A DNA stretch of 44,986 nt, from positions 1-44,986 of the forward strand of contig JAHDDP010000026.1 of assembly GCA_020629285.1 (NCBI GenBank). The letters run 5' to 3'. Every line of letters starts with the position of its first letter. The first letter of the stretch is position 1. Shown in pieces: positions 19,645 through 23,875 of the stretch. The translations under genes and the position numbers were made by a program. The DNA is from Maribacter sp. (GTDB taxonomy: Bacteria; Bacteroidota; Bacteroidia; Flavobacteriales; Flavobacteriaceae). The notes under the pieces were generated by a model. It worked only from the letters and a program-made list of their open reading frames with translations, was not told the DNA's origin and did not search any database.

Positions 19645-19664
19645 AATTTTGACAATATTGATTG

Positions 19665-19695
19665 AAAAAGACTTGCTTTAAGCAGGTCTTTTTTG
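19665..19695 (+). terminator. Terminator after the Spy-like gene
   Basis: A 12-bp stem with one G-U pair (19666-19677 with 19681-19692) has a 3-base loop, with an A run before and T run after. Confidence 0.8.
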
Positions 19696-19897: not shown

Positions 19898-22800
19898 ATG
19901 ATAACAAAAAAATTAGGTTATTTAATATTTCTTCTAACCTTAAGTCTTTTGACCGGTTGTCAACAAGAACTTTATAAGTCTAACAACAAATTCAATATTC
20001 CTGAAAAAAGTACCGAAGAGCCACTTGTTCAGTTTTTGATCGAGCCTACCAATTATAGCGCTATTCTTGAAACAGAGAATTTGGCTAAGGCTTTCGACTA
20101 TTCTAAAATTGCACATAAAACCCTATGGGTAAATCAATTTAATGAAAAACTCAACATATCTCCTACTACAAGAGTCGTAACGGTACACGAAACAGCCGGC
20201 TTAAGCACTATTGCCATAGATAGCCTTTTAAAGTTTGTATCTAAAGGTGGTACTCTGTTGGTCACTAAAGCTGCTAAAGACGAACGTATGTCTTACTTTT
20301 TTGGTATGACACCAGATGCAGATTGGAGCACGAACATAGAAGCCTCTGGCCTATTCTTCAACAAAGCTCTTTTTCCTGGTATGCAAGGGCGAGGTTTTGA
20401 TAACAAAACCGTTCATCTTGGCTTTGACAGCTCTAATTTTTCTAGTAACATCAATGTTTTAGTCTCAGCACACAACAACCAAGATTATCCAGTTTTAATA
20501 GAAAATAGAATTGGTAACGGAAAAGTGATTTTATATAATTCATCTCAAATTCTTAAAAAAGAAATGAGAGGTCTTCTATTTTCTGCAAGTCTACTAGGTT
20601 TAGAGGGTATACCCTACCCTATTGCAAATATCGGAACCTTGTTTCTTGATGATTTTCCTTCCGCAATGTATGATGATAACGGTAAGGCAATCAATATACA
20701 AAATGGCATAACCAAATCTGAGATGCTAAAAACCGATTGGTGGCCAAAAATGAAAGCCCTTGCACAAGAAGAAGATATTAAATACTCTGCCTACGTCACT
20801 TTCAATGCCAATGAAAAAAATACAGGCGACCTTAATTTTAAAAGTTGGGACCAAACCGGTTTGCTAGAAGGTAAAAATGAGAACGGCAAAAATAAATGGC
20901 TAACCAACGAATTTACGAACCGAGGTCATGAGCTTGGATTTCGTGGTTATAACGATCTTCCACTTTCCAAAAATTTATGGAAAGACACCGATATTATCTT
21001 AGACAACGCAAAGGCTTCTAGAGAAAAATGGGAAGACAATATTGCAAATACTCTGCCTAGTTCTTACGTAGCGCCTGACAATACAATCGATAGCCTAGGA
21101 CTAATCTCTCTTAAAAAAGGATTTCCTAGTTTAAGTTTTCTTCACACCTTTTTTTTAGGTGATTTATACAAAGGTGGAAATAGGGAATTTGACCCAGACC
21201 CGTTAAACAATAGATTTTTTGATTACCCTAGATTAAGTAGTGGTTATACTATATCTGAACAAGAGCAATGGGCAATAGAGTCTACATATTTATATACCGG
21301 TATTTGGTCTCATGTATTAAACACTAGTGATATTTTAAAGATAGGTAGTACAACAAATGCTATTGGTGAATTAAAAAAGCACATTGTTGATTACAAAAAA
21401 AGACACCCTTACATGAAGTTTTTAACTGCCAAACAGTCTACCGAAGCAGCAATGGACTGGCGTTACCAAAGTATTCGACATTTAAGTTACGAAGGGAAAT
21501 ATGAAGTTTCCAGTTCCTTGAATTCTGATGAGAAAAAAGACTCTTATTGGTTAATGTACGTTGAAGAACATAATAATGTAAAAGTACACGAAGCACTTTC
21601 GTTCGATCAAGCAGAATTTTCTTCAGTTCCTTTATTGAACGGATTTCTTTATAGTATTCAAACAAAATCACCTAATATAAGCGTTCCTGATATTCGACCG
21701 GAAATAAGAACTTTAATCGGCACAACTTCAACATTGATCACAAATACCAATAGTGATTACAAATCTTACAACAAGAGTAAACAAACTATGGTTCCGCTGA
21801 AACAAAAAATCGATAGATTGATTGTTGAGGAGAAAACAGAAGAGGCAACGAACTTAATGGAAAAGTTATTTAAGGATAACAAATTCATTAACGCTCAACA
21901 AATCATCACTTATGCCGAAGGGATGGAGTCACAAGGTAAAACCGAACAACTTTGGTCTCAGTTAAACGAATTATATTTAAAAAATCCTTCTGGCTCATAT
22001 GCTGATTTTTCTAGAGATATAAGCACCGTAAGTAATTACCCCTCACCTGCCATTAAAAAAATGTGGATGGAGAGACAAATGGAATGGGGACAAAATGATG
22101 AAACTATTTTAAAAGAATACTACAACAGTTTTAATACTGAAGATAACACTGAAATTATTGAACAGGTTTTAGATGTTCTTTACACGATAGAGCCAACGGA
22201 AGAGAACAAGTTGACGTATTACGAATTTCTAGTAAACTCTAATAATGAAGATCTTCTATCAAAACTAGATGACATTGAACCTTGTAGTATTTCAAATAGA
22301 GATTTAGCAACATCAATTAGTCATATCTATGCAGACAAACTAAATTTCGAAAGAGCTGAGCAATGGCAAAAATGCGGTAACATTTCTCCAGAAACCGTTA
22401 AAGAATGGAAAGAAAAAACAAGAACAATAGAAAGTAAAAAGTTTTCGGATTTCGAATATTATGTAAGATACCTATTGGTAAATGACCCCGACAAAGCGGT
22501 TACAGAGTTAAGGGAAATTGAAACATGTAGACCTGACCTAATAAGAATATCTAAAAACATAGCATTTCTATTTGCCGATTATACTCAATACCAAAAAGCT
22601 TTGGATTGGAGCACTTGTACAAATACCGTACCCGTAGCTAAATTGCTAGACTGGAACTTAGAATTTGCAAATGGTAGATACTTAAAGAAAGTGTATGCTA
22701 AGCATATAGAGAAAAATCCTAGAGATTACAACACCATGAACCACATGGCAAAAATCTTATTATTAAAAGGTGATGTAAATAGTGCCGGTGAAATTGCAGT

Positions 22801-23827
22801 AAACATACCACCTGCTAAAATTGACCCAGATTTTAAAATTGCATTTAACAATGAAGTAAAAGCAACATCTAAAGAAAAGCAATCTTTATACATAACCAAG
22901 TTTAAAGTGCTAATGGATGATGCCATCGTAAAAAAATCAGAAACTGAATCTCGAAAAAAGAAAGGTCATTCCATCGGGCTTACTTCAACGGCTATGGCAG
23001 ATGAGTTTAACCCTACACTTTTCAATAATGCATTTCACTTTGGTTTTTATAATAAAAAGCTAGATTTTCACCAATTTTCTATTGTTCAAGGTACGGCATA
23101 TACCATTTTAAAAGATACGATTGTACCTAATGATATTGGCAGAGATTTATTAGGTATAGCATATGTCTATAAAAAAGAATCTAATCAAAAAAGGCCATTT
23201 TATGTTGGCGCAAGGGTAGAGATGGATAACTTCAATAAAGTATTTTTCCATTTTAGATCTGGAATAGATTTTATCGGTGATACCAGTACATCTTCTTTAA
23301 GTGTAAAAGCTCATCCTGTTACAACAGGACCTGGGTATGATTTAAATATTTACAATATACAGGCAAAAGCGGCACAAGAGTTTGAATATTCATCTAATTT
23401 AAATCACGAGTTTTATATAAAAGCCGATTATTATACCGATAGTCAATATTATGCTATTGGTGGTACACGCGTAGAATATAACTTATTGAATTTAGATAAA
23501 TTTAAACTAGGACCGTTAATTGAGGGTGCCTATGGTGTTGGTTCTGAAGATAGACGAAATGGATTCCCTTACTGGCTAACAAAAGACAGACTTTTTGCCG
23601 GTGGCGGACTGCAATTTCAACTAGGTAATGATGACTCTGATTTTAACCTGAAAAGCGATTTCTCCCTTTTTGCCGAGCAAGATGAAGATAGCTTTCAACG
23701 CTATGAAGGTGAATTATCATATAGAATCAAAAACTTCACCACTATTAACCTAAACTATTCTTACTTTACAATTGACAAGTTTTTCTCAAATGCTGTTCAA
23801 TTAGGTATTCAGTATAATTTTAAATAG
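19898..23827 (+). CDS. DUF2194/deacetylase-like + TPR + outer-membrane beta-barrel fusion lipoprotein
   Basis: This 1309-residue envelope protein may modify and export a surface polysaccharide. The signal peptide ends LLTGC with Cys21 in a good lipobox. Residues 45-240 look like the amidotransferase/trimerisation-type fold (KGGTLLVTKAA near 116; a later IGNGKVILYNSSQ). Residues 245-560 resemble DUF2194 and NodB-like deacetylases: FLDDFPS with Asp251/Asp252, and RGHELGFRGYND with His344; the second His usual in HxxxH is replaced by Arg. Residues 640-1000 are helical and TPR-like (repeated A-E/QW and YxxALDW elements). From about 1023 to the end there is alternating beta-barrel sequence, finishing VQLGIQYNFK. 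PelA and PelB carry similar parts as separate proteins. It is monocistronic, with no glycosyltransferase nearby. The domain calls are from pattern only; the barrel and lipobox are the surest. Confidence 0.7.
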   Translation: MITKKLGYLIFLLTLSLLTGCQQELYKSNNKFNIPEKSTEEPLVQFLIEPTNYSAILETENLAKAFDYSKIAHKTLWVNQFNEKLNISPTTRVVTVHETAGLSTIAIDSLLKFVSKGGTLLVTKAAKDERMSYFFGMTPDADWSTNIEASGLFFNKALFPGMQGRGFDNKTVHLGFDSSNFSSNINVLVSAHNNQDYPVLIENRIGNGKVILYNSSQILKKEMRGLLFSASLLGLEGIPYPIANIGTLFLDDFPSAMYDDNGKAINIQNGITKSEMLKTDWWPKMKALAQEEDIKYSAYVTFNANEKNTGDLNFKSWDQTGLLEGKNENGKNKWLTNEFTNRGHELGFRGYNDLPLSKNLWKDTDIILDNAKASREKWEDNIANTLPSSYVAPDNTIDSLGLISLKKGFPSLSFLHTFFLGDLYKGGNREFDPDPLNNRFFDYPRLSSGYTISEQEQWAIESTYLYTGIWSHVLNTSDILKIGSTTNAIGELKKHIVDYKKRHPYMKFLTAKQSTEAAMDWRYQSIRHLSYEGKYEVSSSLNSDEKKDSYWLMYVEEHNNVKVHEALSFDQAEFSSVPLLNGFLYSIQTKSPNISVPDIRPEIRTLIGTTSTLITNTNSDYKSYNKSKQTMVPLKQKIDRLIVEEKTEEATNLMEKLFKDNKFINAQQIITYAEGMESQGKTEQLWSQLNELYLKNPSGSYADFSRDISTVSNYPSPAIKKMWMERQMEWGQNDETILKEYYNSFNTEDNTEIIEQVLDVLYTIEPTEENKLTYYEFLVNSNNEDLLSKLDDIEPCSISNRDLATSISHIYADKLNFERAEQWQKCGNISPETVKEWKEKTRTIESKKFSDFEYYVRYLLVNDPDKAVTELREIETCRPDLIRISKNIAFLFADYTQYQKALDWSTCTNTVPVAKLLDWNLEFANGRYLKKVYAKHIEKNPRDYNTMNHMAKILLLKGDVNSAGEIAVNIPPAKIDPDFKIAFNNEVKATSKEKQSLYITKFKVLMDDAIVKKSETESRKKKGHSIGLTSTAMADEFNPTLFNNAFHFGFYNKKLDFHQFSIVQGTAYTILKDTIVPNDIGRDLLGIAYVYKKESNQKRPFYVGARVEMDNFNKVFFHFRSGIDFIGDTSTSSLSVKAHPVTTGPGYDLNIYNIQAKAAQEFEYSSNLNHEFYIKADYYTDSQYYAIGGTRVEYNLLNLDKFKLGPLIEGAYGVGSEDRRNGFPYWLTKDRLFAGGGLQFQLGNDDSDFNLKSDFSLFAEQDEDSFQRYEGELSYRIKNFTTINLNYSYFTIDKFFSNAVQLGIQYNFK

Positions 23828-23846: not shown

Positions 23847-23875
23847 AAAAGAGCCCTCATAAGAGGGCTCTTTTT
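23847..23875 (+). terminator. Terminator after the fusion lipoprotein gene
   Basis: A perfect stem gagccctc/gagggctc (23851-23858 with 23863-23870) with a 4-base loop has A4 before and T5 after. Confidence 0.9.

Follow-up and report, generated by a model that had tools for sequence, protein, structure and literature searches.

The window analysed here is a stretch of 44,986 nucleotides of Maribacter sp. (Flavobacteriaceae; assembly GCA_020629285.1, contig JAHDDP010000026.1), and its gene of interest occupies positions 19898-23827. It is a diverged relative, now orphaned, of the fusion gene found at the end of a pel-like run in Bacteroidota, and it joins a Pel-type de-N-acetylase, an export pore of the PelB/BcsC/PgaA type and a lipobox in one chain. 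The window holds 41 open reading frames (ORFs), of which the gene of interest and ten others were run against Pfam and the rest were read as translations only. A preliminary description, made from the sequence alone, had pointed to this ORF, its lipobox, three motifs and its position alone between terminators, and all of these are found in the sequence, the terminators as stems on either side. The features are listed below, with the methods on which they rest (TPR, tetratricopeptide repeat).

19898..23827, + strand: whole gene, fusion lipoprotein of the PelA_DA-PelB type, catalytically degenerate orphan, 1309 amino acids (aa) (Pfam, phmmer, AlphaFold2, Foldseek)
19898..19960, + strand: signal peptide and lipobox with Cys21 (sequence; Cys21 in 80/84 rows)
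19961..20626, + strand: CBM114-like alpha/beta domain, residues 22-243, boundary approximate; orphans alter 0/17 operon-conserved sites (alignment)
20627..21565, + strand: CE26-like domain, residues 244-556; 21/69 operon-conserved sites changed or unfixed in orphans (Pfam, alignment)
20648..20653, + strand: D251/D252, equivalent to BcPelA_DA D262/D263, kept (alignment)
20942..20944, + strand: R349, replacing BcPelA_DA metal ligand H350 (alignment)
20954..20956, + strand: D353, replacing BcPelA_DA metal ligand H354 (alignment)
21320..21322, + strand: N475, replacing BcPelA_DA catalytic acid H488 (alignment)
21695..22963, + strand: helical hairpin (TPR-like) region, residues 600-1022 (AlphaFold2 model)
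22967..23821, + strand: outer-membrane barrel of 16 strands, residues 1024-1308; strands 7 and 8 are separated by a short helix (AlphaFold2, Foldseek, comparison with PelB Plug-I)
19664..19694, + strand: terminator-like stem 5' of the gene, -16.3 kcal/mol, z -4.6 (stem prediction)
23847..23874, seen on both strands: terminator-like stem 3' of the gene (stem prediction)

The lipobox reads LLTGC, and its Cys21 is conserved in 80 of 84 aligned rows, the remaining four being pieces without a start. The motifs are FLDDFPS (D251/D252), RGHELGFRGYND (H344) and YNFK at the C-terminus. Lipidated barrel proteins have precedents in OprM and NalP. Residues 29-556 belong to DUF2194 (PF09960; E 7.9e-46, 157 bits against a curated cut-off of 30.4), and a search of the 1309-aa protein against NCBIfam gave zero matches. 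The sole solved relative by sequence (phmmer against PDB, E<=1) is 9ZAU, aligned over residues 60-533 with an E of 1.2e-37. This is the Pel de-N-acetylase of Bacillus cereus, BcPelA_DA, the founder of the CAZy families CE26 and CBM114 (PMC13254593; papers are cited here from excerpts of their text).

For the second half, an AlphaFold2 model of residues 560-1309 (62 rows) has a mean predicted local distance difference test score (pLDDT) of 88.5 and a predicted TM-score (pTM) of 0.57. It places helical hairpins up to about residue 1022, followed by 16 strands at 1024-1308. In a Foldseek search against PDB (1289 matches, E<=10), ranks 1-5 went to BcsC 9b8h, BcsC 9b8a, PgaA 4y25, BcsC 6tzk and PelB in PelBC 9h80, with E from 9.8e-10 to 9.2e-7. 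PelB, whose 16-stranded barrel resembles those of BcsC and PgaA, carries a short helix called Plug-I between strands 7 and 8 (PMC12141448); the model has a short helix in the same place (model residues 585-589). The protein is thus predicted to carry the repeats and 16-stranded barrel that mark PelB/BcsC/PgaA export pores. The architecture proposed in the preliminary description, a deacetylase-type half (DUF2194 or CE18/CE4-like), a TPR-like middle and a barrel past residue 1020, is borne out by Pfam, phmmer, AlphaFold2 and Foldseek together.

The pel-like run of relatives

The family was surveyed by searching 299 genomes with the protein, and 13 matched, host included. In three of them (host, G286 and G075) the gene has the same neighbours as in the window and no partner genes. 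In the other ten the fusion ends a conserved five-gene run, although the contig of G202 stops before it is complete; the order is PelF-like, PelG-like (~535 aa), GH114, a membrane protein of about 13 transmembrane (TM) segments (~660 aa) and the fusion (~1335 aa), and some of these genomes have further same-strand genes after it. A contig scan was seeded by two patterns, one of them the MT2 motif with either His or Arg. It retained the best 80 of 100 relatives, making 77 loci (L037-L113), which belong to Flavobacteriaceae or its genera except for L072, L096 and L104, placed only to order or phylum. All five genes occur in 63 of the 77 loci, 60 of these in plain order, while three on short contigs have some and 11 have none. 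Close to the run, 30 of the 77 loci also hold a second GH114-containing protein (~340 aa), which is reversed in L066, L068, L069, L070 and L078, all Salegentibacter.

In L028, the only Bacteroidota locus scanned gene by gene, PelF was confirmed (DUF3492 and GT4; NF038011 at 161.5 bits against a cut-off of 100, in one protein) and GH114 was recognised by Pfam, and the PelG-like and 13-TM proteins had nothing over cut-off in Pfam or NCBIfam. The Flavobacteriaceae PelG-like protein that was tested falls short of PF16933, and its identity was bridged through more distant genomes. A draw of 296 genomes across the phylum gave PelG matches in 12, over cut-off in five, and eight stretches around matches were taken. 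Six of the eight, all from the family f23, have a fusion of 1283-1314 aa after the 13-TM gene. The profile built here from PelG-like proteins finds the six f23 proteins at 4e-119 to 2e-129 and a protein of G563 at 3e-98, and PF16933 is passed by four of the six f23 genomes (one only with its neighbours in frame) and by G563. Of the other two stretches, that of G563 (L163) has a related run with its DUF2194 gene cut at the stretch end, and L167 has no run. The f23 runs have an extra gene of ~530 aa and, where seen whole, two small genes after the run. In the f23 loci L160-L162 and L164-L166 the ~530-aa protein lies between the PelG-like and GH114 proteins, and there is a second PelF-related glycosyltransferase of ~395 aa.

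The adjacency of PelF and PelG, by which a pel operon is recognised, is found in the relatives and not in the window. Homologues adjoin pelF and a PelG-like flippase in the family genomes, most of the 77 loci and f23, a point that the preliminary description had proposed to check. PelD and PelE were not recognised in ten Pfam-scanned proteins (nine of L028, one of L032), nor PelC among the five conserved genes, no dedicated search having been made for any of the three. Regulation of the run may differ, because no c-di-GMP (cyclic di-GMP) receptor was recognised in L028.

The 13-TM protein is represented by 64 proteins of 630-700 aa on the + strand in L037-L113, among them L041:8022-9998. The AlphaFold model of the latter (34 rows) has a pLDDT of 85.7 and a pTM of 0.86. 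In Foldseek, the 12 hits at E<=0.001, and the whole of ranks 1-22 out of 308, consist of oligosaccharyltransferase, PglB, AglB, DPY19, AftA, ArnT, AftD or ALG entries, a few of them listed only by the containing complex, with TM-scores by query length of 0.29-0.39. We take these entries to be enzymes of the GT-C fold. By this resemblance the 13-TM protein is GT-C-like, with a predicted glycosyltransferase activity, and would add a GT-C-like component to Pel-type synthesis; we know of no such enzyme from pel operons.

Catalytic residues and genomic context

The catalytic residues were mapped on the phmmer alignment to 9ZAU, with chain positions counted by hand and an offset of 25 from the numbering of PMC13254593. 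Four positions are kept, namely the MT1 aspartates D262/D263 of BcPelA_DA as D251/D252, P405 as P393 and R458 as R445. The MT2 HxxxH metal ligands H350/H354 fall on R349/D353, and the MT5 catalytic acid H488 falls on N475. The preliminary description had read H344 as one metal ligand and an Arg in place of the second His; this was mistaken, since the ligand positions fall on R349 and D353 and both metal histidines are gone, together with the acid. MT1/2 mutants of BcPelA_DA did not restore adherence (PMC13254593). Because three catalytic residues are lost, the window protein should not deacetylate by the CE26 mechanism.

Across the relatives, catalytic residues follow genomic context. Among distinct proteins with the CE region covered, the two aspartates and three histidines are all kept in 71 of 71 copies with at least one operon partner and in 0 of 16 without. 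Four pieces without the CE region and ten identical proteins were dropped before this count (nine identical proteins in the Cys21 alignment), and some of the 71 are contig-cut or stop-split (L036, L105, L100, L113) and were counted for the catalytic residues only. Four partnerless copies with short flanks (L115, L116, L123, L124) were seen free of partners in 20-kb stretches, and L088 lies at a contig edge. Unseeded scans agree, with 10/10 operon-borne copies intact and 3/3 orphans having lost residues in the family, and 4/4 operon-borne copies intact in the genus. The association of context with catalysis has a Fisher p of 8.4e-18, a value that ignores kinship, the fair count being two events.

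Fifteen of the 16 partnerless copies carry R349/D353, and 13 of them form one Maribacter clade in an 81-row tree, which leaves out L057 (broken) and L088. Both zinc histidines are replaced in all 15 counted Maribacter orphans and the acid in 14; within the orphan clade, L077 (of G286) keeps His at position 475 but has R349/D353, and L123 has Ser there. The sixteenth copy, L086, from a Croceivirga metagenome-assembled genome without a detected PelF, has lost the aspartates too. In the 81-row tree the orphan clade (SH-aLRT branch support 100, stem 0.71) lies among operon-borne Maribacter sequences, where branches are long, and a mixture-model tree puts it in the same place. A single origin of the dead copies was rejected on a 28-row tree without the CE columns by the approximately unbiased (AU) test (p-AU 4.25e-07), for which the tree was of a quick kind and the group was defined with an earlier tree already in view. 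The residues thus appear, from these alignments and trees, to have been lost on at least two independent occasions.

The host assembly, which is 83% complete, has no match to PelF (PF11997), PelG (PF16933) or the custom PelG-like and 13-TM profiles, in keeping with the earlier remark that no flippase was in view. In the genus, 20 of 36 genomes match the gene: 13 with a full-length orphan-type copy (G302 included), one with a copy cut at a contig edge (G321), one with a broken copy (G317), two with remnants at the same site (G303, G313) and three with an operon copy only (G304, G312, G315). PelF occurs in four of the 36, exactly those with an operon-borne copy (G302, G304, G312, G315), and the PelG-like and 13-TM proteins occur in the same four. 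All three are absent from 12 of the 13 genomes with a full-length orphan, host among the 12. A pel-like run elsewhere in the genome that would serve the orphan is unsupported in these 12, only G302 having PelF, a result that is weaker for the host (83%) and for G308 (94%).

In G302 an orphan (L138) and an operon copy (L139) occur together, a dead copy and a complete run with a live one in a single species, which offers a natural paired experiment. Such live and dead pairs make it possible to tell what the deacetylase domain does as an enzyme from what it does as a structural part.

GH114 was also considered as a partner of the orphan today. Nine of the 36 genus genomes have a strongly scoring standalone GH114, and eight of these have the orphan or its broken form. 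A partnership was not borne out, since seven orphan-bearing genomes, host included, lack a standalone copy and the four neighbourhoods read (L174:8851-9693; L175-L177) hold housekeeping genes. The co-occurrence may reflect shared ancestry only. The four copies read have lipoprotein-like starts, and none was found in the host assembly.

Selection and the role of the orphan

Rates of nonsynonymous (dN) and synonymous (dS) substitution were compared by a simple counting method, with L124 dropped and pairs outside dS 0.05-1.2 left out. The median dN/dS of orphan pairs is 0.056 (31 pairs; CBM 0.036, CE 0.046, TPR 0.071, barrel 0.051), and that of 12 operon-borne Maribacter pairs is 0.142. In three species pairs the orphan gave 0.048-0.065, the neighbouring lysS and hemL 0.025-0.048, and other neighbours 0.022-0.154, with one undefined. 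The Maribacter orphans appear, by these ratios, to be under purifying selection. Sites conserved in at least 95% of 67 operon-borne copies were then compared with 13 orphans. In the CE part 21 of 69 are changed or unfixed, 10 of these having switched to a single new residue; the figure elsewhere is 4 of 52, with one such switch (signal 0/2, CBM 0/17, TPR 1/10, barrel 3/23; Fisher p 0.0027), so that the catalytic part has been remodelled while the conserved core of the rest is largely held.

These results bear on the possibility that the orphan is a relic in decay, whose role was lost with the operon and whose survivors are merely unbroken so far as the gene is being removed. The remnants in G303 and G313, the broken copy of G317 and the 16 of 36 genus genomes without a match would fit such a course, but the 13 full-length copies in the genus, the low dN/dS (medians 0.036-0.071 by domain, close to lysS and hemL) and the clustering of changes in the CE domain instead of a spread along the gene make it unlikely.

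Along the gene, the window copy and L077:9992-13921 differ by a dS of 0.84-0.89 in the CBM and CE parts and of 0.36-0.40 in the TPR and barrel parts, which suggests recombination inside the gene.

If Pel biology is a guide, PelF of the operon-borne relatives would polymerise an N-acetylgalactosamine (GalNAc)-type polymer, the PelG-like protein would carry this product through the inner membrane, the GT-C-like and GH114 proteins would decorate or trim it, and the fusion would deacetylate it and pass it through its own barrel. The lineage of the window has kept the sugar-binding domain, the repeats and the barrel under apparent purifying selection, with the zinc site and the catalytic acid gone and neither a synthase nor a flippase of this kind found. 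Its protein may now work without deacetylation, as a polysaccharide-binding outer-membrane pore or anchor, and would most likely pass or hold another glycan, of the cell surface or the environment. We consider it probable that the protein is a pseudo-deacetylase turned into a polysaccharide-binding outer-membrane pore and kept without a polymer synthase.

Several observations weigh against this. In B. cereus, the CBM114 residues E115, W147 and D231 aid the binding of (GalNAc)6 (PMC13254593), and these are only partly shared, with E98 for E115 but M131 for W147 and K218 for D231 by hand count. The TM-scores of the top five Foldseek matches are modest (0.30-0.34 by query length), as is the model's pTM of 0.57, and the ranks beneath, as listed, are mostly general porins and repeat proteins. 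The contig scan was seeded partly by the MT2 His/Arg motif, so that copies with other motifs could escape it. The dN/dS values come from simple counting at high dS, and the genus can do without the orphan, since a match is missing from 16 of 36 genomes, two have only remnants and one has a broken copy.

The preliminary description had proposed a compact, self-sufficient export system. One gene serving both exopolysaccharide modification and export, perhaps by joining an unrelated synthase elsewhere in the genome, would agree with the retained pore and sugar-binding domains, but the deacetylase residues are lost, the intact relatives sit in a five-gene run, and, in a search confined to the Pel kind of synthase, PelF, PelG-like and 13-TM proteins were absent from 12 of the 13 genus genomes that have a full-length orphan, the host among them, which goes against it. 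We regard this as improbable, the window copy being an orphan without three catalytic residues.

A hydrolase or deacetylase that is still active through a metal-free or re-wired mechanism is very doubtful: D251/D252, P393 and R445 are kept and the CE-like domain is strongly constrained (dN/dS 0.046), but both zinc histidines are replaced in 15/15 Maribacter orphans and the acid in 14, L086 is independently without the aspartates, and the BcPelA_DA MT1/2 mutants did not restore adherence (PMC13254593).

Returning to the pseudo-deacetylase pore, a wider proposal is put forward tentatively, a little short of evenly balanced: that the pel-like run of Bacteroidota has both a lipidated deacetylase-pore chain and a GT-C-like glycosyltransferase, and that this chain has at least twice left its operon and lost its active site, Maribacter having retained it as a sugar-binding pore in a new role. 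If true, polysaccharide export would have given rise, by exaptation, to a pseudo-enzyme pore.

Comparison with known systems

Among the listings and excerpts of the open-licence full-text literature, which leaves subscription papers and preprints outside the scope, we found no account of a fused PelA-PelB in Bacteroidota, though one may exist elsewhere. BcPelA_DA (9ZAU) resembles the window protein in the order of its CBM-like and deacetylase domains and in the equivalents of D262/D263, P405 and R458, and differs in having H350/H354/H488 where the window protein has R349/D353/N475. It also has a membrane helix, whereas the window protein has a lipobox, with repeats and barrel fused behind. A DUF2194 gene is known from Fusobacterium nucleatum as well, where it tops the genes reduced in coculture with Porphyromonas gingivalis (log2 -6.0; PMC9848294, Table 2).

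On the pore side, BcsC and PgaA (9B8H, 9B8A, 6TZK, 4Y25) hold Foldseek ranks 1-4 of 1289, but their polymers are cellulose and PNAG (poly-N-acetylglucosamine), and to our knowledge their chains carry no deacetylase. Pseudomonas PelB in PelBC (9H80; PMC12141448) shares with the window protein the helical repeats, the 16-stranded barrel and the helix between strands 7 and 8; unlike PelB, the window protein joins a deacetylase on the same chain, with a lipobox. Zymomonas BcsZC (PMC7112194), in which a periplasmic hydrolase is fused to an outer-membrane export pore, is an earlier case of a modification enzyme joined to a pore, although the enzyme is a cellulose hydrolase and not a deacetylase, and the excerpts describe no inactive orphan.

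A further parallel is the pair PelA-PelB of Pseudomonas. PelA binds the PelB repeats, the predicted docking site of its deacetylase domain, and deacetylation is enhanced when the two interact; a route leading along PelB into its porin has been proposed (PMC12022489). The coupling of Pel deacetylation to PelB export is described as unclear in PMC13254593 and PMC12022489; a fusion in one chain makes the stoichiometry and path of deacetylation and export directly testable. In Pseudomonas these are two proteins and PelA carries its own hydrolase, whereas among the relatives of the fusion GH114 is a separate gene, and the fusion would hold together the same two parts that meet in PelA-PelB (PMC12022489).

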